Notes: generated by a model from the letters alone, not told the origin. A DNA stretch of 64,000 nt from Methanococcoides sp. (GCA_021108275.1 JAIORD010000041.1:1-64000), one strand, 5' to 3'. Positions 39,707-54,050 are shown, counted from the first letter of the stretch. Numbers and translations: made by a program.

Positions 39707-40360
39707 ATGGGAAATCAAGAAATTTTCGACAAACTCAAAAACGCAATAGTGAACCAGGATATCAACGGCTGCCCTGTAATAACACAGGAAGCTCTTGATG
39801 CAGGAATTACTGCTTTCGACATTATCAACGAAGCACTTGCACCAGGAATGAAGATCGTGGGCGACAACTTCGAAGCAGCAACTATCTACCTTCCACAGAT
39901 CATGATGTCTGCAAAGGCAATGAAGGCTGCAATGGAGATCCTTGAGCCAATTCTCGCAGAAGAGAAAGGCGACGAAGAGGGCGTAGGCATGGCAGTAACT
40001 TTCGTACAGGAAGGAGATATTCACGATATCGGTCACCGTCTTGTTACAACAATGCTCGGTGCAAACGGATTTGAGATCCTTGACCTTGGAACAGATATTC
40101 CAAACGAGGATGTAGTAGAAGCAATTGCAAAGAACAAGGGTAAGAAAATGCTCCTTGTCGGTTCCGCACTTATGACAACCTCAATGCTTGGCCAGAAAGA
40201 TGTAGTAAGGTTACTCGAAGAAGAGAACCTCAGAGATTCTGTAAAGATCATGTTCGGTGGCGCACCAGTAACAGATGCATGGATCGCAGAATGTGGCGCA
40301 GACGGCACAGCCGAAAATGCAGCAGAAGCAGCAAGAGTAGCACTTGAACTTATGGCATGA
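39707..40360 (+). CDS. mtmC: Monomethylamine corrinoid protein, copy 1
   Basis: The 217-residue corrinoid carrier accepts the methyl group from monomethylamine via MtmB and passes it to MtbA and then coenzyme M. An N-terminal helical cap domain (residues 1-85) precedes the B12-binding domain. There, the D-I-H-D-I-G motif (104-109) supplies the lower axial histidine 106, and later G-S-A-L-M-T-T-S completes the site. ATG 39707 follows AAAGGTG; GTG 39698 overlaps that site. mtmB1 starts 15 bp downstream. The first 50 codons differ slightly from copy 2; the rest is the same. Confidence 0.95.
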   Translation: MGNQEIFDKLKNAIVNQDINGCPVITQEALDAGITAFDIINEALAPGMKIVGDNFEAATIYLPQIMMSAKAMKAAMEILEPILAEEKGDEEGVGMAVTFVQEGDIHDIGHRLVTTMLGANGFEILDLGTDIPNEDVVEAIAKNKGKKMLLVGSALMTTSMLGQKDVVRLLEEENLRDSVKIMFGGAPVTDAWIAECGADGTAENAAEAARVALELMA

Positions 40361-41745
40361 GCAGGAGATATTAAAATGACATTTACAAAATCAGTTACCT
40401 GCTTTGACTTCTACGACCGAGCACAGAAAGGCGAGAAATGTACCCAGGATGACTGGGATCTGATGACCATTCCAATGAAGGCAATGGAACTCAAGAATAA
40501 ATACAACCTTGACTTTGGTACCGAGACCGTTCCAACCGACAAGGATCAGATGGAGAGACTCTTCAAGGCAGGTATCGAAATGCTCCTTGACTGTGGTATC
40601 TACTGCACAGACACAAAGAGGATCGTCAAATACACAGAGGACGAGATCTGGGACGCTATCAACAACCCAATGCCAGCATTCCAGCTCGGTACCGGCAGAG
40701 ATTCAGTACAGATGAAGAAGAGGACAATAGGCGACAAGAGAAAGCCTATAGTACAGGGCGGTCCAACCGGCTCACCTATCTCAGAAGATATGTTCATGCC
40801 AATTCACATGAGCTATGCACTCGAGAAAGAAGTTGACACAATTGTTAATGGTGTCATGATGACGATCCGTGGTAAGCCACCTATACCAGGCAGCCCATAC
40901 GAGATCCTCGCAGCAAAGTCCGAAACAAGGCTCATCAAGAACGCAGCAGCAATGGCTGGCAGACCTGGTATGGCCGTTTAGGGACCTGAGACTTCCCTGT
41001 CCGCACAGGGAAACATCGCTTCCGACTGTGTCGGTGGCCAGGTAACAAGTGACAGCCACGAAGTATCACAGCTCAACGAGCTTAAGATTGACCTCGATGC
41101 AATCGCAGTTATCGCACACTACAAGGGTAACAGCGACATCATCATGGACGAACAGATGCCTATCTTCGGCGGATACGCTGGTGGTATTGAGGAAACAACC
41201 ATTGTAGATGTTGCAAGTAGCATTAACTCCATGGTAATGAGCAGTGCAAGCTGGCACCTTGATGGTCCTGTCCACATCAGATGGGGATCCACCAACACCA
41301 GAGAAACCCTCCAGATCGCTGGATGGGCATGTGCAACTATCAGTGAGTTCACAGACCTTATGACAGGTAACCAGTACTATCCATGTGCAGGTCCATGTAC
41401 CGAAATGTGCCTCCTCGAAGCAGCAGCACAGTCCGTAACTGACACAGCATCCGGCCGTGAGATCCTCTCAGGTGTCGCAGCAGCAAAGGGTGTCATCACT
41501 GACAAGACAACCGGTATGGAAGCAAGGATGATGGGAGAAGTCGCACGTGCAACAGCAGGCATGGACATCGACTCCGTGAACGCTGTTATCAACAACATCG
41601 TCAGCTCCTACGAAGGCAACTACGCAAACGCTCCTGAAGGTAAGAGATTCCAGGACTGTTACGATGTTGCAACCGTTACACCAACCGACGAGTACGTAAA
41701 AGTATACGAAGGCGCAAGAAGGAAACTCGAAGAATTCGGTCTTAC
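39860..41745 (+). repeat. 1886-bp near-perfect direct repeat, copy 1
   Basis: On reading, this tract is identical to 49427-51312 (offset 9567 bp). It covers most of mtmC and almost all of mtmB. The first differences on each side are 39859 (G versus A) and 41746 (C versus A). Upstream codons of mtmC and all flanking DNA differ, which points to gene conversion within the coding tract. Confidence 0.9.
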
Positions 41746-41752
41746 CTTCTAA
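40376..41752 (+). CDS. mtmB: Monomethylamine methyltransferase with pyrrolysine, copy 1
   Basis: The 458-residue TIM-barrel enzyme demethylates monomethylamine and methylates MtmC. The frame has an internal TAG at 40979-40981 (codon 202) after A-G-R-P-G-M-A-V and before G-P-E-T-S-L-S-A-Q-G, exactly the known MtmB pyrrolysine position. Downstream sequence continues without a stop to TAA at 41750. Read conventionally it would end after 201 residues, so a genome annotation may show two pieces. mtmC lies 15 bp upstream. A terminator follows at 41778. Confidence 0.97.
40979..40981 (+). other. Pyrrolysine codon (TAG) of mtmB1
   Basis: Codon 202 of MtmB. It is read as pyrrolysine by tRNA-Pyl and PylRS in Methanosarcinaceae. 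The pyl genes are not in this window. Confidence 0.97.
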
Positions 41753-41777: not shown

Positions 41778-41812
41778 TGCCAGCATGTGTGCTGGCATTC
41801 TTTTCTTTTTTG
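41778..41812 (+). terminator. Terminator after mtmB1
   Basis: The perfect 8-bp stem tgccagca (41778-41785) / tgctggca (41790-41797) has a 4-nt loop and is followed by a T-rich run. The corresponding hairpin after mtmB2 has a different sequence. Confidence 0.85.
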
Positions 41813-42442: not shown

Positions 42443-42538
42443 ATGGATATATGGACTATAATAAATGGAATCATCTATTTGACCTGTTTTGTTTTGATAG
42501 GTTGGATGTTGTTAGATGCCAGTAAAGTCTCAAAATAA
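42443..42538 (+). CDS. 31-residue membrane microprotein of permease module 1
   Basis: ATG 42443 opens a 31-residue frame with a single hydrophobic helix (residues about 4-25) and a conserved end L-L-D-A-S-K-V-S. The second module encodes a 32-residue relative in the same place (51454) that differs at only seven or eight positions, although the spacers differ completely. Conservation at protein level and fixed position show that it is a real gene. It lies 23 bp before the permease gene. By analogy with small subunits of SSS/NSS transporters I infer a role as a permease subunit. It is too short for standard gene calling. Confidence 0.8.
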   Translation: MDIWTIINGIIYLTCFVLIGWMLLDASKVSK

Positions 42539-42561
42539 TTGTGGTTTTTAAGGAGAGTTAA

Positions 42562-43938
42562 ATGTCTGGAAATACAAATTCGGAACATGCCGGTGTCGTA
42601 AAGACACTCCGACCCTATCACGTATGGGCGCTTGGTGTCGGTATTGTTCTGGTAGGCGAATACATGGGTTGGAACTTCACAGTTGCAAAAGGTGGAATAC
42701 TTGGTTCACTCTTTGCACTGCTGGTTGCCGGCACCATGTTTGTAATGGTTTCATTGTGTGCCAGTGAACTAGGATCATCAACTAAACTTGCAGGCGGACC
42801 TTATGATTGGGCAAGATTATTCGTAGGACCTGGTGCAGCTGCACTTGTGGGTCTTGCAGTATACATGGAATTCATTGCCCTGGAATCTGCTGACGCTATT
42901 GTCGTTGCATCCATCACAAATTCGATCTTCCCGGAAATACAAACGTTCCCGGTTACATTGCTAATTATCGCATTCTTAACATTTATGAACTATCGTGGAG
43001 TTGTGGCTGCCCTTAACCTTAATTTTGCACTCACGTTCACTGCACTGATAGCTATTATTGTTTTCTTCTTCGCCAACATTACCGGATTTGCCGGCACATG
43101 GCATCCAGAATATCTCATATCAGGAGCTATGCCTAACGGTTTTATCGGTATTTTTGCGGCTCTGCAATTTGGACCTTGGTTCTACCTTGGTATCGAAGGA
43201 GCAGCAATGTGTGCAGAAGAATGTAAACATCCAACAAGAGCAGTTCCTCTTGGTCAGCAAGCAGGTATGATAACCCTTCTTCTCGGCTCAGGTATGACCC
43301 TCTACATATGTTCAGGTCTGATCCCAGCCGCAGAACTCGGTACTTCAGTATACCCACTCTTTGAAGCAGCAACAGCAACAGGTTCAAAATACCTTATTGC
43401 AGCTCTCGGGATCGGTACACTTTTCACCTGTCTTGCAAGCGCAAACGGTACAGTTTGTGACGCATCACGGTCATGGTTTGCCCTTTCAAGGGATAAATTT
43501 CTGACAAACTGGTTCGCTGACGTGCATCCACGTTACAGCACCCCATACAGGGCAGTCATTTTTACAATGCCTATAGCAATCGCATTTGCATTTAGTGGTT
43601 TCCTCGATCAGGTCATCACCTTTTCAATCATATCAGGTTTGATCTGTTATGTAATGATACCATTTTCCCTGATCCGCTTTAGGAAGTTATTCCCGGAGCA
43701 CAGCCAGAAGGTCCGCCCGTTTGTGGGCCCTATGCAGCCAACACTTGCATACATTACGATTTTCCTTGCCATTGTGATCATGTCTACCCTTAACTGGGGA
43801 TACGGTTTCAACCTTATATTCGGACTCTTGTTCTACGTGATAGCATACTTCTACTTCTCGTGGAGATACAAGAGCATTGAGATCAATCACGATTGGGGAG
43901 AGGACCTCGGATGGCCTGAGCCCTCACACAGGAGATAA
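42562..43938 (+). CDS. APC-superfamily permease, probable monomethylamine transporter, copy 1
   Basis: The 458-residue permease has about 12 transmembrane helices. The first helix region G-V-G-I-V-L-V-G-E-Y-M-G-W-N and the S-S-T-K-L-A-G-G-P-Y-D-W-A-R segment fit the ethanolamine/amino-acid permease group of the APC superfamily. Permeases of this type lie next to mtm genes in other Methanosarcinaceae (MtmP), and I infer monomethylamine uptake. It ends in a hydrophilic D-W-G-E-D-L-G-W-P-E-P tail. It is part of a four-gene module and is closely similar to the copy at 51572. Confidence 0.85.
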   Translation: MSGNTNSEHAGVVKTLRPYHVWALGVGIVLVGEYMGWNFTVAKGGILGSLFALLVAGTMFVMVSLCASELGSSTKLAGGPYDWARLFVGPGAAALVGLAVYMEFIALESADAIVVASITNSIFPEIQTFPVTLLIIAFLTFMNYRGVVAALNLNFALTFTALIAIIVFFFANITGFAGTWHPEYLISGAMPNGFIGIFAALQFGPWFYLGIEGAAMCAEECKHPTRAVPLGQQAGMITLLLGSGMTLYICSGLIPAAELGTSVYPLFEAATATGSKYLIAALGIGTLFTCLASANGTVCDASRSWFALSRDKFLTNWFADVHPRYSTPYRAVIFTMPIAIAFAFSGFLDQVITFSIISGLICYVMIPFSLIRFRKLFPEHSQKVRPFVGPMQPTLAYITIFLAIVIMSTLNWGYGFNLIFGLLFYVIAYFYFSWRYKSIEINHDWGEDLGWPEPSHRR

Positions 43939-43951
43939 TGGAGGAACAAAA

Positions 43952-44215
43952 ATGGTAAATAAGACAAAATATCACAACGACCTCAAAAAGGATGCAGGCA
44001 TTATTGTTCTTGTGTTAGGACTATTGTTCTTCTCAGAAACATTTGTCTTTTACAGGATAATGTCAACTCTGTGGGATGCAGTGCCTGAAGTTCGTATCAT
44101 CTTTCCGGTCTACCTCTTGTTCTTGGTGCTCCTGCTCGGGATCGAGACAATAGGTTGCATCACTGTGTACAAATCCATAAAGGAACACATGTACGACTTT
44201 AACTATTACGACTAA
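43952..44215 (+). CDS. 87-residue two-helix membrane protein of permease module 1
   Basis: ATG 43952 follows ggagga at 43940-43945. The product has two hydrophobic helices (about 14-36 and 50-73), an N-terminal charged segment and a C-terminal tail K-S-I-K-E-H-M-Y-D-F. The second helix carries L-L-L-G-I-E-T-I-G-C. The relative at 52959 in module 2 keeps these motifs. No known family is recognised; DUF485/YjcH-type partners of SSS carriers are a functional but not sequence parallel. It is probably a subunit of the permease complex. Confidence 0.85.
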   Translation: MVNKTKYHNDLKKDAGIIVLVLGLLFFSETFVFYRIMSTLWDAVPEVRIIFPVYLLFLVLLLGIETIGCITVYKSIKEHMYDFNYYD

Positions 44216-44227
44216 GGAGATGGAAAT

Positions 44228-44461
44228 ATGGCAAAATCTGAAGTAAAAAGTAGTCTGGTCATGCAGATCGCAGATATCCTGTTCATCTTCGTTGTCGCAG
44301 GTATTTGTGTAATAGCTCCCGTAATTATACTTGGAGGAGGAGCTGATACCGGGCCCATGGTGTTCGAATGGGATCCAGTACAATATTTTGGATTGCTGGC
44401 AGTGATCCTTGTATTCTTTGCTGTGATCCTGCGCCACTCTCTTAAGAACTATATCTATTAA
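44228..44461 (+). CDS. 77-residue two-helix membrane protein of permease module 1
   Basis: ATG 44228 follows aaggagatgg. Two helices are predicted (about 12-35 and 51-70). The loop and second helix contain W-D-P-V-Q-Y-F-G-L-L-A, which is unchanged in the module 2 relative at 53242. The C-terminus is short and basic/aromatic. It lies 12 bp after the preceding gene, and a terminator follows. The function is unknown; its constant place after the permease argues for a structural or regulatory subunit. Confidence 0.85.
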   Translation: MAKSEVKSSLVMQIADILFIFVVAGICVIAPVIILGGGADTGPMVFEWDPVQYFGLLAVILVFFAVILRHSLKNYIY

Positions 44462-44474
44462 ATTGACTCCAATT

Positions 44475-44517
44475 GGTTGTGGTTCAATTACCACAACTTC
44501 TTCTTTTTATTTTTTTA
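44475..44517 (+). terminator. Terminator of permease module 1
   Basis: The 7-bp stem gttgtgg (44476-44482) / ccacaac (44491-44497) has an 8-nt loop and is followed by a T-rich stretch. Confidence 0.7.
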
Positions 44518-44674
44518 CTGCCATTTGAACTTAACTTCCATAAGATTTTTCTACTGGAGTTCAGTACATTTTCAATAAAAAATAGAAACCTTCATATCTA
44601 ACAAACAATCATTATACCGTTACAAATAAAAGCTGAAATAGGTCATCAGCAGTATTTTGGGGTAAAGGGGTATA

Positions 44675-45460
44675 ATGAATTCTTCATTGACAGATAATAT
44701 ATGGCTTTCTGAGAAAAGGACAAACCTGCTTTTGTTACTTATGGAAGGACCAAGAGACATAGAACAGATCAAGGTCTCACTTAATGTGACATCTCGTGGA
44801 ATGATGCCACAGATAAAAAAGCTGAAAGAAAAATGTCTCATCGTTGAAGAAGATGAAACTTATAGACTTTCTAATACTGGCAGACTCATAGTCAGAAACA
44901 TGCTCCCTTTGATCAACACACTGCGAATGATAAACGAGAATCGAAGTTACTGGGAACAGCATGATATTAACATACTCCCTCCACATCTTTTTAAAGGACT
45001 TCACAACCTTGGCAATTACCTCCTTCTTGAACCTGATCTGAACTATACTTTTGAGATACCAAAAGAATTCACTGAGAACTTATTGAGATCAAAGGAAATA
45101 ATGTCCATCATCTCATTTTTCCGCCCTGAATATCCAAAGTTCTATTCCCAACTTGCAGAAAAAGCAGACAGTCTCACACTCTTACTTTCAAGATCAGTAT
45201 TTAAAAGAATGGAGAAGAATTGTGCTTCAGAACTGGAATTCCTACTTTCGTCAGAGAGCACAAGATTGTATCTCTATGAAGGCGAAGGGAGACCACCAGC
45301 CATCGATGTCTCTGACTGGTTCATGTATGTCAGCTTTTTCAATGAACAGGGACGCTATGATCACAGAGATATAATGAGCTTCGATGAAACCGCTTTGAAA
45401 TGGGGAAAAGAGCTTTTCCAGTATTATTGTGACCGATCAACAGAGATAACAGAGATATAA
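44675..45460 (+). CDS. FilR1-family methanogenesis regulator, copy 1
   Basis: The 261-residue protein has an N-terminal winged helix (residues about 10-80; I-E-Q-I-K-V-S-L-N-V-T-S-R-G-M-M-P-Q-I-K-K-L-K as recognition region). The FilR1/DUF1724 domain (about 110-255) contains P-x-L-F-K-G-L-H-N-L-G-N and ends in a W-G-K-E-L-F-Q-Y-Y helix. This is the Msr type that controls methyltransferase genes in Methanosarcina. A paralogue follows 15 bp later. The position between two mtm loci suggests that it regulates them, possibly by sensing the methylamine supply. Confidence 0.85.
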   Translation: MNSSLTDNIWLSEKRTNLLLLLMEGPRDIEQIKVSLNVTSRGMMPQIKKLKEKCLIVEEDETYRLSNTGRLIVRNMLPLINTLRMINENRSYWEQHDINILPPHLFKGLHNLGNYLLLEPDLNYTFEIPKEFTENLLRSKEIMSIISFFRPEYPKFYSQLAEKADSLTLLLSRSVFKRMEKNCASELEFLLSSESTRLYLYEGEGRPPAIDVSDWFMYVSFFNEQGRYDHRDIMSFDETALKWGKELFQYYCDRSTEITEI

Positions 45461-45475
45461 AGGAGAATATTCAAG

Positions 45476-46255
45476 ATGCCAATGGAACTTATTGAAACTA
45501 TTTTTCTCTCAGAAAAAAGAGAAAATCTTCTCCTTATGCTACTTAATAATCCTGCTGACATCAAAACTATAGATTCTACCCTTGAAGTCACCTCTTCATC
45601 CATACTCCCCCAAATAAAAAAACTGAGGGAAGTCGGTTTTATAGATAAGAATGAGAACGGAGCATATGAATTGACCAGTATAGGAAGGCTGGTTGTAGAG
45701 AACATGAAACCCCTCTCAAGCATGCTTAAAGTCTTTGATGTGGCCTGTGAATACTGGGATGAAAGAGACCTGACCACAATTCCAGATGAGCTTCTTGACA
45801 ACATTGGAAGCCTTGGAAATATTCAATTAATAGTACCTGACCTGGATCACATGTATGAACTTCAGGATGACTTCCTGAATAACATGCAAATATCAAACAA
45901 AGTATCATCCGTGCTCTCTCTTTACCATCCGGATAACCTTGACCTTTTCAATAAATTGGACACAGCCGGAGTCAATATAGAGATCATACTTACAGAATCC
46001 GTACTTGAAAGAATGCTGAGCGATTCCGAAAAGGAGATGGAAGCGTTCCTTAGTTCAAAGAACACTATAATTCTTGTTTGTGATAATACAATAAAACCAC
46101 CTCCATTCAGTGTCACTGATACTTTTATATACATGAGCCTTTTCAATATTCAAGGTAGATATGATCATCACGATATCATGAGCTTTGAAGCAAGTGCATT
46201 AGAATGGGGAGAAATGTTGTTCGAGCACTATAAGGGCCTAGCCACACCCTATTGA
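45476..46255 (+). CDS. FilR1-family methanogenesis regulator, copy 2
   Basis: The 259-residue paralogue of the preceding gene has the same architecture: a winged helix with S-I-L-P-Q-I-K-K-L-R, then the FilR1 domain ending W-G-E-M-L-F-E-H-Y. The ribosome site is aaaggagaat before ATG 45476. The N-terminal L-S-E-K-R-E-N-L-L-L-M-L-L is shared with copy 1, but the overall identity is moderate, so the two probably respond to different signals or form a heteromer. Msr proteins of Methanosarcina also occur as activator and repressor pairs. Confidence 0.85.
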   Translation: MPMELIETIFLSEKRENLLLMLLNNPADIKTIDSTLEVTSSSILPQIKKLREVGFIDKNENGAYELTSIGRLVVENMKPLSSMLKVFDVACEYWDERDLTTIPDELLDNIGSLGNIQLIVPDLDHMYELQDDFLNNMQISNKVSSVLSLYHPDNLDLFNKLDTAGVNIEIILTESVLERMLSDSEKEMEAFLSSKNTIILVCDNTIKPPPFSVTDTFIYMSLFNIQGRYDHHDIMSFEASALEWGEMLFEHYKGLATPY

Positions 46256-46294
46256 ATAAATTTATGTGAATATCACAACGGAAGTGAAACGATA

Positions 46295-48478
46295 ATGAGA
46301 TGGAAAGATGTATCATTAAAAGTAAAACTTGTACTATATATTGTAACAGGGGTCTTTCTGATATTATCCGCTTCTACCTCTATTGTCATCACCACAGTCA
46401 CAGAACAGGAAGAACAACTCGCATATCATGATTCCATCCAAAACGCAAAAAGTTTCGCAAATGGCTACAATGCTGATATGAAAGCGAATATGGCAGTTGC
46501 ACATACCCTTGCAGCACTTCTGGCAAAATATGATAATGCTGACCGTGATGAAATAAATGCCATGCTGGAAGAACTATTACTGGAGAATCCAGAACTTCTT
46601 GCCGTATATGTTGCTTTCGAACCAAACGCTTTTGACGGCCGGGATTCTGAGTTCGTCAATGCTGATGCAACTCACGATGAAACCGGTCGTTTCATTCCTT
46701 ACTGGAACAAGATTGGCGGCGAGATGTTCGTAGAGCCACTTGTAGATTATGATACCCTCGATTATTATCAGCTTACAAAAGAACAGGAACAGGATATCAT
46801 CACAGAACCCTACCTCTACCAGGGCGCTCTTATCGTAAGTTATGATGCACCCATTGTCAGAGATGGAGAGTTCATAGGCATCGGTGGGGTCGATGTAGAG
46901 CTAAACTATGTCGATGAGACCGTAAGTAGCGTAAAAGCATTTGATACGGGTTATCTGTTCATGGTAAGCAATACCGGAGTGTTACTATCCCATCCAACGA
47001 GAAAGGACTGGATCGGCCTAAGATCAATGGCAGATTTTGATATCCCGATGATAGAAAAAGCTACCAAAGACATCAATAATGGTATTGGAGGACACATCGA
47101 TACCATCGATCCGGTGACCGGAAAAGAAGTGGTAATGTTCTACGAACCCATAGAGACAGGTAAATTCGCTATTGTACTAGTTGTTCCTACCGAAGAGATG
47201 TTAGCCGGAGTGGAATCATTGCGCTCCACTCTGATTACAATCTACACATTCTCCATCATATTCATGGGCGCCATGGCATACTTAATAGCAGTTTCATTTA
47301 CAGACAGGATCAACGAGATTGTTATTGATTTTAAGAAGATATCAGGAGCTGCGATAAAAGGGGACCTCGATGCCAGGGCTAATACTGATGTAGAGATCGA
47401 CTTTAAGCTCATACCCAAAGGTATGAATGAAATAATGGATGCTTTAACTGCCCATTCCAAAGAATTACAAAACTCATATGAATTGATACGAAAAATGGAA
47501 TCAGCCGTGAACAGCAGTAAAGTTGTGGTATTCTGGTGGAAGTTCGAGCATGAATACCCTGTTGAATTCGTTTCAGATAATGTTGGTCAATTCGGTTATT
47601 CATTGGAAGAGTTCTTATCAGGAAATCTTTTGTATGGCGACATAATTTACAAAGATGACCTGGATAGTGTCTGGTCCGAACTGAATAAATGTGCAGATGA
47701 AGGTCACGATCATTTCCACAAAGACTATCGTATAGTCACCAAAAGCGGAGAAATACGCTGGGTGCATGAAGATACGTTCATACAACGCGATGATGAAGGG
47801 AAGATCGCATACTTCCAGGGAACGATACTTGATATTACCGAGCGTGTCAAAGCAGAGAAAGCACTGAAGGAAATGGATGAGATAAGAACGAAAGAGATAC
47901 ATCATCGTATCAAGAACAATCTTCAGGTCGTTTCTGGAATGCTGTATCTGGAATCACTTAACTTCCGTTATCAGGAAGTAATAGATGCATTCAGGGACAG
48001 CGAGAACCGCGTACGTTCGATAGCACTTATACATGAGAAGCTCTACCAGTCAAAGGACCTTGTCAGCCTTGATCTTGCTGACTACCTCAGGGACCTTACA
48101 GACCATCTTTTCCACTCCTATAGAGTAGGGGAAGAAAATGTAAAACTTATTCTCAATGTCGATGATGTGTTCCTTGGAATGGATACTGCCGTACCTCTTG
48201 GGATCATCATAAACGAACTTACATCCAATGCACTCCAACATGCTTTTGAAGATGGAATAAAAGGCGAGATAGATATCGATTTTTTCAAAAGGGATGAGAT
48301 ATTTGAACTTACCATTAGCAATACAGGCAAACATTTCCCGGAAGATATTGATTTTAAGAATACTGAATCCCTTGGATTACAGCTTGTGACGAATCTCGTT
48401 TCCCAGATAGAAGGAGAAGTGGAGCTTGATACTACCGACAGGACTACATTTAGAATAACTTTCCGTGATGGTAAATAA
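46295..48478 (+). CDS. Membrane histidine kinase: dCache-HAMP-PAS-HisKA_2-HATPase
   Basis: The 727-residue sensor has a first helix at residues about 11-34 and a large extracytoplasmic dCache domain (about 40-300, with V-A-F-E-P-N-A-F-D-G-R and G-V-D-V-E-L). A second helix lies at about 308-330, followed by HAMP, a PAS/PAC domain (415-520) and HisKA_2 with K-E-I-H-H-R-I-K-N-N-L-Q-V-V (phospho-His near 534). The HATPase domain is C-terminal (N-E-L-T-S-N-A). dCache domains bind small ligands, including amines. It is followed 12 bp later by a receiver-only response regulator and lies just upstream of mtmC2. Confidence 0.92.
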   Translation: MRWKDVSLKVKLVLYIVTGVFLILSASTSIVITTVTEQEEQLAYHDSIQNAKSFANGYNADMKANMAVAHTLAALLAKYDNADRDEINAMLEELLLENPELLAVYVAFEPNAFDGRDSEFVNADATHDETGRFIPYWNKIGGEMFVEPLVDYDTLDYYQLTKEQEQDIITEPYLYQGALIVSYDAPIVRDGEFIGIGGVDVELNYVDETVSSVKAFDTGYLFMVSNTGVLLSHPTRKDWIGLRSMADFDIPMIEKATKDINNGIGGHIDTIDPVTGKEVVMFYEPIETGKFAIVLVVPTEEMLAGVESLRSTLITIYTFSIIFMGAMAYLIAVSFTDRINEIVIDFKKISGAAIKGDLDARANTDVEIDFKLIPKGMNEIMDALTAHSKELQNSYELIRKMESAVNSSKVVVFWWKFEHEYPVEFVSDNVGQFGYSLEEFLSGNLLYGDIIYKDDLDSVWSELNKCADEGHDHFHKDYRIVTKSGEIRWVHEDTFIQRDDEGKIAYFQGTILDITERVKAEKALKEMDEIRTKEIHHRIKNNLQVVSGMLYLESLNFRYQEVIDAFRDSENRVRSIALIHEKLYQSKDLVSLDLADYLRDLTDHLFHSYRVGEENVKLILNVDDVFLGMDTAVPLGIIINELTSNALQHAFEDGIKGEIDIDFFKRDEIFELTISNTGKHFPEDIDFKNTESLGLQLVTNLVSQIEGEVELDTTDRTTFRITFRDGK

Positions 48479-48490
48479 CAAGGTGTTACT

Positions 48491-48895
48491 ATGAAAAATA
48501 TCAGGATATTAGTAGTTGAAGATGAAGCGATCGTAGCAATGGTGATAAAAAAGAGATTGATGGACCTTGGTTATGTTGTCTCAGGAGTTGCAGCTACCGG
48601 AGCAGATGCCATCAATAAAGTAGAAGGAACCTTTCCGGACCTTGTGCTTATGGATATTATGCTGAAAGGAGATATGGATGGTATCGAAGCTGCTGAGGAG
48701 ATACGTAAGAGGTTTTCGATCCCCGTAATATATCTTACAGCACACTCCGATGAAAATACCCTCGAAAGAGCTAAACTTACCGAACCTTATGGATACATCC
48801 TGAAACCATTTACAGAAAGAGACTTAAGTAGCAATATTGAGATCGCCATCCATAAACACCGGCGTGAAATGGAAAATGATAAAGCTGAAAAATGA
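48491..48895 (+). CDS. Receiver-only response regulator
   Basis: The 134-residue CheY-like receiver has acidic residues V-E-D-E-A near the N-terminus, the phospho-acceptor aspartate in L-V-L-M-D-I-M-L (near 56), and the K in I-L-K-P-F (near 106). It has no output domain. It lies 12 bp after the histidine kinase and must be its partner. Output could be by protein interaction, for example with the FilR1 regulators or another kinase. Confidence 0.92.
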
Positions 48896-49273
48896 TAAAA
48901 AGAGAACTATTTTATCATTTCTTCTCATTTTAATTCTCTTCATTTAAGGTACAGTAGTAGCCTCACTGGTATCCTCCATCTTTTAGATTCAACGTTTCAA
49001 TGCCATTGTCGATTTTTAAGACATTGTCGTTTTTTATCCATCCTGTCAATTGTAGCTAAATGATAAAATTTACAGTTTTATTCAAACATATACACCCATA
49101 TCAATTTGTTTAGTTATTACAAGTTCAAACGGCATGGGCAGATTTTAATATAGTTTACAAAAACGATATCGGCTAGGTTATATGTTTTTGGAACTGATGT
49201 TAATTTACTGATGCCTACTCTAAATTGGCATTGAACAGACAATATTGCGTAATACAAAAAAGGTGAAATAGAA
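48896..49273 (+). promoter_or_regulatory. mtmC2 promoter region and leader
   Basis: The 378-bp spacer holds no gene. TATA-like ttttaatatag (49143-49153) predicts a start near 49173 and a leader of about 100 nt. The ribosome site is aaaaaggtgaaa (49257-49268). The sequence is unrelated to the promoter region of mtmC1, so the two copies are probably expressed under different conditions. Confidence 0.5.
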
Positions 49274-49927
49274 ATGGGAAATCAAGAACTTTTTGACAAG
49301 CTGAAAAATGCAATAGTGAACCAGGATATCAACGGCTGCCCTGTAATAACACAGGAAGCACTTGATGCAGGAATTACTGCTTTCGATATTATCAACGAAG
49401 CACTTGCACCAGGAATGAAGGTCGTAGGCGACAACTTCGAAGCAGCAACTATCTACCTTCCACAGATCATGATGTCTGCAAAGGCAATGAAGGCTGCAAT
49501 GGAGATCCTTGAGCCAATTCTCGCAGAAGAGAAAGGCGACGAAGAGGGCGTAGGCATGGCAGTAACTTTCGTACAGGAAGGAGATATTCACGATATCGGT
49601 CACCGTCTTGTTACAACAATGCTCGGTGCAAACGGATTTGAGATCCTTGACCTTGGAACAGATATTCCAAACGAGGATGTAGTAGAAGCAATTGCAAAGA
49701 ACAAGGGTAAGAAAATGCTCCTTGTCGGTTCCGCACTTATGACAACCTCAATGCTTGGCCAGAAAGATGTAGTAAGGTTACTCGAAGAAGAGAACCTCAG
49801 AGATTCTGTAAAGATCATGTTCGGTGGCGCACCAGTAACAGATGCATGGATCGCAGAATGTGGCGCAGACGGCACAGCCGAAAATGCAGCAGAAGCAGCA
49901 AGAGTAGCACTTGAACTTATGGCATGA
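49274..49927 (+). CDS. mtmC: Monomethylamine corrinoid protein, copy 2
   Basis: The 217-residue product is nearly identical to copy 1. Differences are confined to the first 50 codons (E-L-F versus E-I-F near the start, V50 versus I50, and silent changes). D-I-H-D-I-G with the cobalt-binding histidine is at 104-109. The gene starts at ATG 49274 with GGTGAAA 6 nt upstream. mtmB2 follows after 15 bp, as in copy 1. Confidence 0.95.
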   Translation: MGNQELFDKLKNAIVNQDINGCPVITQEALDAGITAFDIINEALAPGMKVVGDNFEAATIYLPQIMMSAKAMKAAMEILEPILAEEKGDEEGVGMAVTFVQEGDIHDIGHRLVTTMLGANGFEILDLGTDIPNEDVVEAIAKNKGKKMLLVGSALMTTSMLGQKDVVRLLEEENLRDSVKIMFGGAPVTDAWIAECGADGTAENAAEAARVALELMA

Positions 49928-51312
49928 GCAGGAGATATTAAAATGACATTTACAAAATCAGTTACCTGCTTTGACTTCTACGACCGAGCACAGAAAGGCG
50001 AGAAATGTACCCAGGATGACTGGGATCTGATGACCATTCCAATGAAGGCAATGGAACTCAAGAATAAATACAACCTTGACTTTGGTACCGAGACCGTTCC
50101 AACCGACAAGGATCAGATGGAGAGACTCTTCAAGGCAGGTATCGAAATGCTCCTTGACTGTGGTATCTACTGCACAGACACAAAGAGGATCGTCAAATAC
50201 ACAGAGGACGAGATCTGGGACGCTATCAACAACCCAATGCCAGCATTCCAGCTCGGTACCGGCAGAGATTCAGTACAGATGAAGAAGAGGACAATAGGCG
50301 ACAAGAGAAAGCCTATAGTACAGGGCGGTCCAACCGGCTCACCTATCTCAGAAGATATGTTCATGCCAATTCACATGAGCTATGCACTCGAGAAAGAAGT
50401 TGACACAATTGTTAATGGTGTCATGATGACGATCCGTGGTAAGCCACCTATACCAGGCAGCCCATACGAGATCCTCGCAGCAAAGTCCGAAACAAGGCTC
50501 ATCAAGAACGCAGCAGCAATGGCTGGCAGACCTGGTATGGCCGTTTAGGGACCTGAGACTTCCCTGTCCGCACAGGGAAACATCGCTTCCGACTGTGTCG
50601 GTGGCCAGGTAACAAGTGACAGCCACGAAGTATCACAGCTCAACGAGCTTAAGATTGACCTCGATGCAATCGCAGTTATCGCACACTACAAGGGTAACAG
50701 CGACATCATCATGGACGAACAGATGCCTATCTTCGGCGGATACGCTGGTGGTATTGAGGAAACAACCATTGTAGATGTTGCAAGTAGCATTAACTCCATG
50801 GTAATGAGCAGTGCAAGCTGGCACCTTGATGGTCCTGTCCACATCAGATGGGGATCCACCAACACCAGAGAAACCCTCCAGATCGCTGGATGGGCATGTG
50901 CAACTATCAGTGAGTTCACAGACCTTATGACAGGTAACCAGTACTATCCATGTGCAGGTCCATGTACCGAAATGTGCCTCCTCGAAGCAGCAGCACAGTC
51001 CGTAACTGACACAGCATCCGGCCGTGAGATCCTCTCAGGTGTCGCAGCAGCAAAGGGTGTCATCACTGACAAGACAACCGGTATGGAAGCAAGGATGATG
51101 GGAGAAGTCGCACGTGCAACAGCAGGCATGGACATCGACTCCGTGAACGCTGTTATCAACAACATCGTCAGCTCCTACGAAGGCAACTACGCAAACGCTC
51201 CTGAAGGTAAGAGATTCCAGGACTGTTACGATGTTGCAACCGTTACACCAACCGACGAGTACGTAAAAGTATACGAAGGCGCAAGAAGGAAACTCGAAGA
51301 ATTCGGTCTTAC
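49427..51312 (+). repeat. 1886-bp near-perfect direct repeat, copy 2
   Basis: This is the partner of 39860-41745. The boundaries lie inside mtmC (49426) and seven bases before the end of mtmB (51313). Direct orientation and the 9.6-kb distance mean that recombination between the copies could delete the regulators and permease module 1. Confidence 0.9.
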
Positions 51313-51319
51313 ATTCTAA
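49943..51319 (+). CDS. mtmB: Monomethylamine methyltransferase with pyrrolysine, copy 2
   Basis: The 458-residue product has the in-frame TAG at 50546-50548 (codon 202), as in copy 1. The protein appears identical to MtmB1; the only base difference I saw is silent (third base near the C-terminal T-F). It is followed by its own terminator (51345-51372) and then permease module 2. A gene caller without pyrrolysine would split it into a 201-residue piece and a downstream piece. Confidence 0.97.
50546..50548 (+). other. Pyrrolysine codon (TAG) of mtmB2
   Basis: Codon 202, in the same context as in mtmB1. Confidence 0.97.
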
Positions 51320-51344
51320 CCCTTAAATTAGCAATGACGTTTTT

Positions 51345-51372
51345 ACCAGCGAGAGATCGCTGGTTTTTTTTT
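51345..51372 (+). terminator. Terminator after mtmB2
   Basis: The perfect 8-bp stem accagcga (51345-51352) / tcgctggt (51357-51364) has a 4-nt loop and continues into a run of T to 51372. Its sequence is unrelated to the hairpin after mtmB1. Confidence 0.85.
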
Positions 51373-51380
51373 ATAACGCC

Positions 51381-51406
51381 ATTTGTCATTATTTTAATAG
51401 ACAAAT
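51381..51406 (+). promoter_or_regulatory. Promoter with flanking inverted repeat, permease module 2
   Basis: The TATA-like attttaata (51391-51399) is framed by atttgtc (51381-51387) and gacaaat (51400-51406), a perfect 7-bp inverted repeat. A regulator dimer binding there would block the TATA box. The module 1 promoter does not have this element. Confidence 0.45.
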
Positions 51407-51453
51407 CAACATCAAAATAAAAAGTCAAACAAAATGCTAAGGGGGCATTCAAA

Positions 51454-51552
51454 ATGGATATGTGGACTTTAATAAACGGGGTAATTTACCTCATATGTTT
51501 TGCCTTGATCGGCTGGATGTTGTTGGACGCAAGCAAAGTATCCAACAAGTAA
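51454..51552 (+). CDS. 32-residue membrane microprotein of permease module 2
   Basis: ATG 51454 follows aagggggc and opens a 32-residue frame with one hydrophobic helix and the C-terminal L-L-D-A-S-K-V-S-N-K. It is the counterpart of the 42443 gene: same length, same place 19 bp before the permease, most residues kept (I-G-W-M-L-L-D-A-S-K identical). Conservation between two diverged modules is the main proof that this tiny gene is real. Confidence 0.8.
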   Translation: MDMWTLINGVIYLICFALIGWMLLDASKVSNK

Positions 51553-51571
51553 TGCTACAGGAGGAGGACAA

Positions 51572-52942
51572 ATGTCAGAAAATTCAAATGAAGTCGAGCT
51601 GGTAAAGTCACTGCGTCCATATCATGTATGGGCACTTGGTGTCGGTATCGTGTTGGTCGGCGAATACATGGGTTGGAACTTCACAGTTGCAAAAGGTGGT
51701 ATACTCGGTTCACTCTTTGCACTACTGGTTGCAGGTACCATGTATGTAATGGTGTCACTGTGTGCCAGTGAACTAGGTTCATCCACTAAACTTGCCGGTG
51801 GACCATACGATTGGGCCAGATTATTCGTCGGACCCGGTGCGGCGGCCATTGTTGGTCTTGCTGTTTATATGGAATATATTGCCCTGGAAGCTGCGGACGC
51901 TATTGTTGTAGCATCTATCGCGCAATCGATCTTCCCGGATATACAAACGTTCCCGGTAACTTTGCTTGTTATCGCGGCTTTGACATTTATGAACTATCGT
52001 GGAGTTGTAGCAGCACTTAATCTTAACTTTGCTCTTACATTCACAGCATTGATAGCAATTATAGCATTCTTCTTTATGAATATTGGTGGAATTGGCGGAA
52101 CATGGCATCCGGAATACCTTATTTCAGGAGCTATACCCAACGGATTTATCGGAGTTTTCGCCGCATTGCAGTTTGGACCATGGTTCTACCTTGGTATCGA
52201 AGGAGCAGCAATGTGTGCAGAGGAATGTAAACACCCAACAAGAGCTATTCCTCTTGGACAACAGGCAGGTATGATCACCCTTCTCCTCGGAGCAGGTATG
52301 ACACTCTACATCTGTTCAGGTCTCATTCCAACCGCAGAACTCGGTGTTTCAGTATATCCACTCTTTGAAGCAGCAAATCAGAGCGGTGTTAAATTCCTGG
52401 TTGCATTCCTTGCAGTAGGTACTCTATTCACCTGTCTTGCAAGTGCCAACGGTACTGTCTGTGATTCATCAAGGTCCTGGTTTGCTCTGTCAAGAGATCA
52501 TTTCCTGACCAACTGGTTCGCTGCAGTACACACAAAATACAGCACACCATACAGGGCGGTCATTTTCACAATGCCAATTGCTGTTGCCTTTGCATACAGT
52601 GGATTCCTGGATCAGGTCATTACTTTCTCCATCACATCAGGACTGGTATGTTACGTGATGATCCCATTCTCCCTGATACGCTTCAGGAAGATGTTCCCGG
52701 AACACACACAAAAAGTACGTCCATTTGTCGGACCACTGCAGCCTTATCTGGCATACTTCACAATATTCCTGGCAATCGTGATCATGTCTACACTTAACTG
52801 GGGATACAGCTACAACCTTATCTTCGGACTTGTCTTCTATATAGTAGCCTACTTCTACTTCTCATGGAGATACAGGAGCATAGACGCAAAACACGACTGG
52901 GGAGAAGACCTTGGATGGCCTGAACCTGCACATAAGAGGTGA
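51572..52942 (+). CDS. APC-superfamily permease, probable monomethylamine transporter, copy 2
   Basis: The 456-residue protein has about 12 helices and is close to the copy at 42562. The N-terminal K-S-L-R-P-Y-H-V-W-A-L-G-V-G-I-V-L-V-G and the S-S-T-K-L-A-G-G-P-Y-D-W motifs are shared, while several loops and the S-V-Y-P-L-F-E-A-A-N-Q-S-G-V-K region differ. The ribosome site is aggaggac before ATG 51572. Unlike mtmCB, this gene has not been homogenised with its paralogue, which may mean different affinity or substrate. Uptake of monomethylamine is inferred from position. Confidence 0.85.
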   Translation: MSENSNEVELVKSLRPYHVWALGVGIVLVGEYMGWNFTVAKGGILGSLFALLVAGTMYVMVSLCASELGSSTKLAGGPYDWARLFVGPGAAAIVGLAVYMEYIALEAADAIVVASIAQSIFPDIQTFPVTLLVIAALTFMNYRGVVAALNLNFALTFTALIAIIAFFFMNIGGIGGTWHPEYLISGAIPNGFIGVFAALQFGPWFYLGIEGAAMCAEECKHPTRAIPLGQQAGMITLLLGAGMTLYICSGLIPTAELGVSVYPLFEAANQSGVKFLVAFLAVGTLFTCLASANGTVCDSSRSWFALSRDHFLTNWFAAVHTKYSTPYRAVIFTMPIAVAFAYSGFLDQVITFSITSGLVCYVMIPFSLIRFRKMFPEHTQKVRPFVGPLQPYLAYFTIFLAIVIMSTLNWGYSYNLIFGLVFYIVAYFYFSWRYRSIDAKHDWGEDLGWPEPAHKR

Positions 52943-52958
52943 ACAGGAGGAATATATC

Positions 52959-53228
52959 ATGGCAGATGAAGCATTATACAATAACAAGCTGAAACAGGAT
53001 GCAGGAGTAATTCTCCTGGTCCTAGGATTGCTGTATTTCTCTGAGACGTTTATCGTCTATAGGATAGTCTCCACAATATGGAGATCCGGAGAAGTACCCG
53101 AGATCACTACAATACTCCCATTCTACATTATATTCATAGTACTCTTGCTTGGGATAGAAACGATCGGATGTATCAGAGTGTACAAGTCCATCAAGGAACA
53201 CATGTACGACTTTAAGTATTACGACTGA
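52959..53228 (+). CDS. 89-residue two-helix membrane protein of permease module 2
   Basis: ATG 52959 follows aggaggaa. Two helices and the C-terminal K-E-H-M-Y-D-F-K-Y-Y-D match the 87-residue relative at 43952; the loop between the helices is two residues longer (W-R-S-G-E-V-P-E). The L-L-L-G-I-E-T-I-G-C helix is identical. It lies 16 bp after the permease stop. Confidence 0.85.
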   Translation: MADEALYNNKLKQDAGVILLVLGLLYFSETFIVYRIVSTIWRSGEVPEITTILPFYIIFIVLLLGIETIGCIRVYKSIKEHMYDFKYYD

Positions 53229-53241
53229 AGGAGGAAAAGAC

Positions 53242-53490
53242 ATGCCAAGCGAAATGAAGACAGAAAGAAGCATGTTCATGACGATATTCGATATCCTGTT
53301 CATATTCATACTGGCAGGTATCTGTATCGTAGTCCCGGTGATCATTCAGGGAACGGTCCTTGTGGGATGGGAAGGAACAGGAACCATGCAATTCGTCTGG
53401 GATCCAGTACAGTATTTTGGATTGCTGGCAATAATTATTGCATTCTTCTTTGTGGTACTCTACCACTCGGTCAAGAATTACAGGTTCTGA
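53242..53490 (+). CDS. 82-residue two-helix membrane protein of permease module 2
   Basis: ATG 53242 follows aaggaggaaaa. The N-terminus is longer and more charged than in the 77-residue relative at 44228, but F-D-I-L-F-I-F-I-L-A-G-I-C and W-D-P-V-Q-Y-F-G-L-L-A are kept. The loop differs (G-T-V-L-V-G-W-E-G-T-G). It ends the module; a long hairpin follows at 53502. Confidence 0.85.
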   Translation: MPSEMKTERSMFMTIFDILFIFILAGICIVVPVIIQGTVLVGWEGTGTMQFVWDPVQYFGLLAIIIAFFFVVLYHSVKNYRF

Positions 53491-53501
53491 ACATGTGAGA
53501 A

Positions 53502-53529
53502 AGGTTGTCAGTATTTTTGCTGACAACCT
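53502..53529 (+). terminator. Hairpin after permease module 2
   Basis: The perfect 10-bp stem aggttgtcag (53502-53511) / ctgacaacct (53520-53529) has an 8-nt loop, but only a weak T-rich tail follows. It lies directly upstream of the next gene's promoter, so it could also be an operator. Confidence 0.6.
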
Positions 53530-53576
53530 ATATATTTTCAAATATCATATATAACAATGAAGTAATGGGTGATCTT

Positions 53577-54050
53577 ATGAGTGAACAAGTAATCAACCGA
53601 CTTAAAGACCCGGAAAACATCACAGAAACAGAACAGAAACATGTACCTGTTATCGAAGCTGATGAAGTGATGACCGCAAAAGGTTCATTCGAAGTTACTG
53701 TAAAGGTGGGGGAATTACCACACGTTATGCAGGACGAACACTATATAGAGTGGATCGAACTCTCGCTCGGGGATATGAAGATCGGCAGGGTGGAATTATC
53801 ACCTTCCGATGAGAAGGCTGAAGCAACATTTACTGTTGAACCTACAGAAGAAATTGTGGGTATCCATGCCTATCAGGTATGCAACATTCGTGGTGTAAAT
53901 GTTTGTGGAAAATGTGGCAGCAAATCTGTTGTAATGAAGTTGGATGCGGTGATAAGCTGCAACGTTCATGGGTTGTGGGAGTCAAAGAAGGAAGTCACGA
54001 TCATGTCAAGTCATGAGGGTGAAGGAAAATCCTGTTCTTGGGAAAAATGA
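53577..54050 (+). CDS. Methanoferrodoxin, superoxide reductase with Fe-S cluster
   Basis: The 157-residue protein has the mononuclear iron centre of superoxide reductase: histidines in K-H-V-P-V-I, L-P-H-V-M and D-E-H-Y-I, plus the Cys and His of S-C-N-V-H-G-L-W. Extra cysteines (Q-V-C-N, V-C-G-K-C-G and the terminal K-S-C-S-W-E-K) provide four further ligands. This matches methanoferrodoxin of Methanosarcina mazei, a superoxide reductase class with a [4Fe-4S] cluster. It detoxifies superoxide to hydrogen peroxide. ATG 53577 is chosen because GGTGATC lies just upstream. Confidence 0.9.
   Translation: MSEQVINRLKDPENITETEQKHVPVIEADEVMTAKGSFEVTVKVGELPHVMQDEHYIEWIELSLGDMKIGRVELSPSDEKAEATFTVEPTEEIVGIHAYQVCNIRGVNVCGKCGSKSVVMKLDAVISCNVHGLWESKKEVTIMSSHEGEGKSCSWEK

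Follow-up and report, generated by a model that had tools for sequence, protein, structure and literature searches.

Methylotrophic methanogenesis and marine methylotrophs both use methylamine as a main substrate, and no validated methylamine uptake transporter in these organisms was found in the literature searched. The window analyzed here, a 64,000 nt stretch of DNA from Methanococcoides sp. (GCA_021108275.1 JAIORD010000041.1:1-64000), carries two copies of a gene set in which an APC permease is accompanied by three very small membrane proteins. This raises the question of whether such a permease works alone or as one subunit of a larger methylammonium transporter.

Two four-gene modules behind the mtmC-mtmB copies

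The original prediction placed two four-gene modules at positions 42443-53490, each behind an mtmC-mtmB pair, and all eight genes were present there in that setting. Both modules have the layout microprotein (31/32 aa, one transmembrane (TM) helix), APC permease, 87/89-aa protein (two TM helices), and 77/82-aa protein (two TM helices), and the three small protein families are termed micro, P89, and P82, respectively. The features in window coordinates were:

40376-41752, + strand, mtmB1 (monomethylamine methyltransferase), context, in-frame TAG at 40979
41778-41797, + strand, terminator-like hairpin between mtmB1 and module 1
42443-42538, + strand, module 1 microprotein, 31 aa, one TM helix, predicted N-out/C-in (ORF, purifying selection, conservation, charge pattern)
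42562-43938, + strand, module 1 APC permease, 458 aa, putative methylammonium permease, MtmP-like (PF00324 5.6e-36; TIGR00908 3e-63, below cut-off)
43952-44215, + strand, module 1 P87, 87 aa, two TM helices, C-terminal tail SIKEHM..F.YYD (ORF, family alignment)
44228-44461, + strand, module 1 P77, 77 aa, two TM helices (ORF, family alignment)
44475-44498, + strand, terminator-like hairpin after module 1
49943-51319, + strand, mtmB2, context, in-frame TAG at 50546
51345-51364, + strand, terminator-like hairpin between mtmB2 and module 2
51454-51552, + strand, module 2 microprotein, 32 aa, one TM helix (ORF, alignment, own-genome search)
51572-52942, + strand, module 2 APC permease, 456 aa (PF00324 2.1e-40; 42-47% identity to permeases of methylotrophic Proteobacteria)
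52959-53228, + strand, module 2 P89, 89 aa, two TM helices (ORF, family alignment, genome survey)
53242-53490, + strand, module 2 P82, 82 aa, two TM helices (ORF, family alignment, genome survey)
53502-53529, + strand, terminator-like hairpin after module 2, 12-pair stem

The close spacing and good ribosome sites described earlier were borne out, with intergenic gaps of 12-23 nt inside the modules and a plausible ribosome site before each gene, and the motifs LLDASKVS, GIETIGC, and WDPVQYFGLLA were found in both copies. The source genome was searched for further micro copies and held these two only. Among the closest named loci, which place the DNA in Methanococcoides, M. alaskense encodes a permease with 99% identity.

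The dN/dS check proposed for the two microprotein copies gave a purifying pattern, with 16.0 of 18.3 synonymous and 7.0 of 74.7 nonsynonymous sites differing. Pooled dN/dS values for orthologues of four genera were 0.05-0.15 for micro, 0.05-0.09 for the permease, 0.12-0.27 for P87/P89, and 0.07-0.24 for P77/P82. The low ratios among orthologues and between the two microprotein copies show that micro is a real gene and that the small frames of the modules did not arise by chance. Each module is bracketed by terminator-like hairpins (a scan of the region found 13 such sites against 7.1 expected), which suggests that its four genes are transcribed as a separate unit and not as an extension of an mtm operon. 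Sigma-70-type promoter matches numbered 31 compared to 32.2 expected by chance, under a model that is not applicable to archaea.

The mtmC-mtmB copies (39707-41752 and 49274-51319) were nearly identical, and both mtmB halves gave the same translation in each; the permease modules that follow had nevertheless diverged (permease dS of 0.86), which looks as if mtmCB had been homogenized by gene conversion. Module 1 is followed by two tandem FilR1-type regulators (44675-46255; PF08350) and then by a sensor histidine kinase plus response regulator (46295-48895), together likely a methylamine-responsive control block. A desulfoferrodoxin-like (superoxide reductase) gene (53559-54050; PF01880 1.3e-28) lies behind module 2 and is lacking behind module 1; it also follows the module in 23 of 62 related loci from several genera.

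Membership of the permease in the APC superfamily (PF00324, PF13520) was indicated by matches along the whole transporter that passed the curated cut-off, the two permeases scoring 125 and 139 bits against PF00324 (cut-off 24.6). The best NCBIfam model was the ethanolamine permease TIGR00908, at 214-215 bits and thus below its cut-off of 381.75. The nearest solved structures by sequence were plant vacuolar CAT4, GkApcT, and the xCT/LAT light chains, with b0,+AT also matched, and a fold search with the permease part of a predicted model returned BasC, GkApcT, and LAT1 at probability 1.00. A TM1 glutamate (Glu31 in VGEYMGW), shared with ethanolamine permeases, is invariant and plausibly contacts the amine; residues K41, Y142, R143, N152, and D298 set the methylamine permease clade apart. 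No Pfam or NCBIfam model scored above cut-off for the small proteins of either archaea or bacteria, and PspB, PhrA, DUF6814, and DUF373 were rejected as candidate families (E 0.001-0.12, all below cut-off). Micro has an acidic N-terminus and a basic C-terminus (0 basic residues in the first six positions and a mean of 3.4 in the last eight), a charge pattern that predicts an N-out/C-in orientation.

Distribution in archaea and Proteobacteria and shared decay

Permease and P89 occurred in the same 46 genomes of a phylum sample of 393, the other 347 having neither. Within 112 genomes of the family, the permease was found in 68, P89 in 68, P82 in 67, and micro in 68, with mismatches attributable to contig ends (G027, G095, and G101) or relics (G004 and G088). 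The search for the four-gene order suggested alongside the original prediction covered 62 archaeal loci from 10 genera, in which micro was present in 60, P89 in 61, and P82 in 60. The order was constant in all save contig ends (L064, L069, and L044) and decaying copies (L054 being broken), which accounted for the missing genes. Intergenic gaps across these loci were often 4-20 nt, and in Methanosarcina-type loci the start of P89 often overlaps the permease end, suggesting coupled translation. The C-terminal half of mtmB lies upstream of the permease in 52/62 loci, and 10/62 had no methylamine gene within the fetched flank, some of these being contig ends. Extra (second or third) whole modules not adjoining mtmB were present in some Methanosarcinaceae (L045, L048, L049, L065, and L062), indicating that the module can stand alone. 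Most Methanosarcina genomes had a single module, and the microprotein preceding the permease of M. mazei has a predicted length of 34 aa.

Loci in decay were informative about the dependence of the small genes on the permease. In a single-contig genome of the same genus (G017), neither micro nor the permease was left in module 1, and the remnants of P87 and P77 were interrupted by TAG and TGA, respectively. In a 99% complete Methanosarcina genome (G088), the permease was deleted after ~14 codons, micro carried a TGA at codon 9, and P89 and P82 were gone, with the upstream mtmB intact. A permease on contig 1 of G019 breaks at residue 422 and lacks both downstream genes, which may reflect misassembly of two near-identical modules, and the co-decay argument is therefore drawn from G017 and G088. 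These two decayed loci indicate that the small genes do not persist once the permease is gone. An orphan 29-aa micro with no permease in the 1.7 kb downstream, in a draft genome (G004), is weak evidence. Beside intact orthologous permeases, where absent or broken small frames would have refuted the original prediction, the small frames were intact, and they were broken or missing only where the permease was lost or broken or the contig ended.

A search of 84,980 species genomes for permease relatives ranked 45 archaeal loci-level matches first, followed by permeases of methylotrophic Alpha-, Beta-, and Gammaproteobacteria with 42-47% identity to the archaeal proteins. Directly upstream of the permease, the 37 bacterial loci encode a two-TM protein (~100-120 aa), a second two-TM protein (~125-133 aa), and a one-TM protein (46-60 aa), i.e., the archaeal TM counts in a different gene order. 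P82-like and micro-like genes were present in 37/37 loci and P89-like genes in 36/37, the sole gap falling at a contig end. Archaeal and bacterial profiles matched at 95.6% (E 1e-8) for micro and 91.5% (E 9e-7) for P82, compared to 0.2-0.3% probability for mismatched pairs; the P89 match was weak at 46.9% (E 2e-4; range 16-47%), colinear over 77 columns. With larger alignments, scores exceeded the block-shuffled null maximum clearly for micro (37.5 vs. 21.6) and P82 (40.9 vs. 22.1) and marginally for P89 (21.6 vs. 20.9). Homology of archaeal and bacterial P89 is thus likely rather than proven by sequence, and is supported by the equal TM count and the company of the other module genes. In the permease tree, archaea and bacteria fall on opposite sides of long branches, from which the direction of transfer is not discernible.

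N-methylglutamate synthase genes were found within the fetched 4 kb in 24/37 bacterial loci, and no methylamine gene was found within the fetched flank in 13/37, some being contig ends. On Paracoccus aminophilus pAMI6, the whole four-gene set adjoins mgsABC and a gmaS-type ligase; its three small genes are annotated as “hypothetical protein” and the permease is named. A study of Methyloversatilis universalis grown on methylamine describes 6-10-fold upregulation of N-methylglutamate pathway genes together with “co-clustered conserved proteins” (PMC5023235). P82-like and micro-like genes beside the permease on Sinorhizobium meliloti pSymB (L201) are present but unannotated. Downstream of the bacterial permease (L190:10397-11325 and other loci) are two conserved hypothetical genes of 217-250 aa and ~92 aa (PNPYLVLASAIVLPGSGQVWNREPLRGL...). 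Taken together, the module genes are real, are kept together, and decay together, and three- or four-way sets recur in bacteria beside methylamine genes; the module is conserved, functionally linked, and wider in distribution than first thought.

A candidate heteromeric methylammonium permease and its alternatives

Each module probably encodes a four-subunit methylammonium permease, i.e., a heteromeric APC transporter. The 12-TM APC-fold permease would carry the substrate site and bind and move CH3NH3+, and addition of the one-TM and the two two-TM subunits would give 17 TM helices if one of each is present. In the most probable arrangement, the micro helix and both hairpins lie against the permease in the manner of MgtS on GkApcT and the 4F2hc helix on LAT1, and the small subunits may stabilize the permease, set its activity or gating, or allow its assembly. 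Physical contact at 1:1:1:1 stoichiometry, methylammonium as the substrate, and a need of the small subunits for transport are what we infer from the conserved gene set. The broader proposal, that methanogens and Proteobacteria share an ancient class of obligate 17-helix methylammonium transporter in which all three tiny subunits are needed for transport, is given about even chances. Of the obligate multi-subunit permease originally predicted, the linked and conserved set stood and was strengthened by the bacterial homologues, and “obligate” stays conjectural.

Models of the complex were built with AlphaFold on chains from loci whose neighboring genes share a frame, the stops being read as a Gly linker, solely as a modeling device that makes no claim on the genetic code. 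The micro-permease-P89 model of L105 was moderate (pLDDT 74.3, pTM 0.71; micro helix pLDDT ~88 and P89 hairpin confident), the permease-P89-P82 model of L096 was unusable (pLDDT 53), and no usable interface was obtained from these chains.

The small proteins could instead be regulators or turnover factors that bind the permease transiently, with transport needing the permease only. MgtS itself also acts on MgtA as such a partner. Small proteins acting on transporters are known from M. mazei, as reported for sP36-AmtB1 (PMC10714827; PMC11456600); overexpression of the M. mazei small membrane protein sORF_05 slowed growth (PMC11456600), and initial rates of GkApcT were similar after MgtS deletion (PMC5803215). 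This explanation is nevertheless considered unlikely, as a strict 1:1 association of three membrane proteins with a permease, seen in two domains of life with unrelated downstream pathways and differing gene orders, goes beyond known regulators, and the small reading frames rot once the permease goes.

A different doubt concerns the substrate, which could be another small, ethanolamine-like amine, as the best model is TIGR00908 (albeit at 215 vs. 381.75 bits) and Glu31 is common to ethanolamine permeases. Most loci nonetheless adjoin mtmB or N-methylglutamate genes, the 42-47% identity within the clade is separated by a clear gap from the 26-30% to ethanolamine permeases, a comparison of plasmid permeases placed the clade at 42-45% with none between it and the ethanolamine permeases, and K41, Y142, R143, N152, and D298 are clade-specific, making another substrate improbable. 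The ethanolamine permease Eat (TIGR00908) is the closest named family and shares the TM1 ...GEY.GW and ...IEG....AEE motifs. However, eutBC occurred in three of four Eat loci and no small-gene homologues were found at any of the four, compared to the mtmB (52/62) or mgs (24/37) neighbors of module permeases.

It is more doubtful still that the small proteins belong to a membrane complex of their own, e.g., a methyltransferase-docking scaffold or a sensor, and have only the operon in common with the permease. Such a role would fit the conserved cytosolic tails, SIKEHM..F.YYD being invariant in archaeal P89 and YxExFLTSSREGE ending the bacterial micro-like protein. These tails differ between the domains, however, as do the adjoining enzymes, MtmBC being unrelated to the N-methylglutamate pathway, and what archaea and bacteria have in common is the TM core and the permease, which points to the permease rather than the enzymes as the conserved contact. 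Finally, operon hitch-hiking of functionally independent neighbors can draw on the conservation of other genes such as the desulfoferrodoxin-like gene (23/62 loci) and is highly improbable because the three small genes, unlike that gene, are never intact without the permease and because the bacterial order is rearranged with its membership kept.

If the four-subunit reading is true, the functional unit is four genes, and functional assays or heterologous expression limited to the permease would give failed or misleading results; in addition, annotation as “hypothetical” or missed genes, as on Sinorhizobium pSymB, would hide half of the genes of the transporter.

Comparison with known systems

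No description of the four-gene set was found in the literature searched, in which most subscription papers were missing. The nearest methylamine-related case is sORF_05, a small membrane protein of the M. mazei mttP operon proposed as a possible TMA permease subunit (PMC11456600). It resembles the module proteins in being encoded with a methylamine permease but differs in its carrier, since MttP is a drug/metabolite-type (DMT) permease (PMC11708041) and the module carrier belongs to APC. Models of micro, P89, and P82 gave no match better than E 0.4 at the MttP loci L192-L196. In each mttB-mttC-mttP operon examined (L193:10743-11208, L192, and L194-L196), mttP is followed by genes for a soluble protein of 98 aa (MSGNRPIKFRILE...) and a one-TM protein of 49-63 aa (...YWANSFIPSAEIMWMVLILILAVIALWQARTFVSQF), with conservation across four genera; the one-TM protein is probably sORF_05. 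Identity of sORF_05 with the module microprotein was rejected as it sits in the mttP operon, where the probable candidate is an unrelated 49-aa protein.

MetS of MetPS and YjcH/DUF485 are small helical proteins encoded beside LeuT-type (NSS and SSS) carriers. These systems have one partner each compared to three in the module, no Pfam or NCBIfam match linked the module small proteins to MetS or DUF485, and the module carrier matched amino acid permease models only, which places it outside NSS and SSS.

The GkApcT-MgtS heterodimer (PDB 5OQT/6F34) is the best physical precedent. In it, the 31-residue single-TM MgtS sits against TM5, where it creates a sterol site and extends the duration of transport, and it has been compared to the helix that the heavy chain contributes in human heteromeric transporters (PMC5803215). 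In both systems, an APC-fold permease is accompanied by a single-TM protein of similar length (31 residues in MgtS, 31/32 in micro), and the module permease model has the same fold. However, MgtS is an Escherichia coli protein caught by chance in heterologous expression and unlinked to the GkApcT gene, and GkApcT has no two-TM partners. MgtS also lies N-in compared to the predicted N-out micro, so that the packing need not match.

The SLC7-SLC3 heteromers (e.g., LAT1-4F2hc) likewise pair an APC-fold carrier with a single-TM partner, and the module permease matched LAT1, xCT, and b0,+AT. The SLC3 heavy chain has a large ectodomain and a disulphide link to the SLC7 light chain. In contrast, the module partners are all <135 aa with no ectodomain, and Pfam scans found no glycosidase-like heavy-chain domain in them. 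The premise that APC permeases are normally single polypeptides, and with it the novelty of a multi-subunit APC carrier as such, overlooked SLC7-SLC3 and GkApcT-MgtS (PMC5803215). Given these precedents, what sets the module apart is the number of its small subunits (three), its occurrence in both archaea and bacteria, and its tie to methylamine, and it would, if the four-subunit reading is true, be the first three-partner case in the APC superfamily. Human members of this superfamily need a partner helix, and the module would then offer a compact native setting in which to study the role of that helix.
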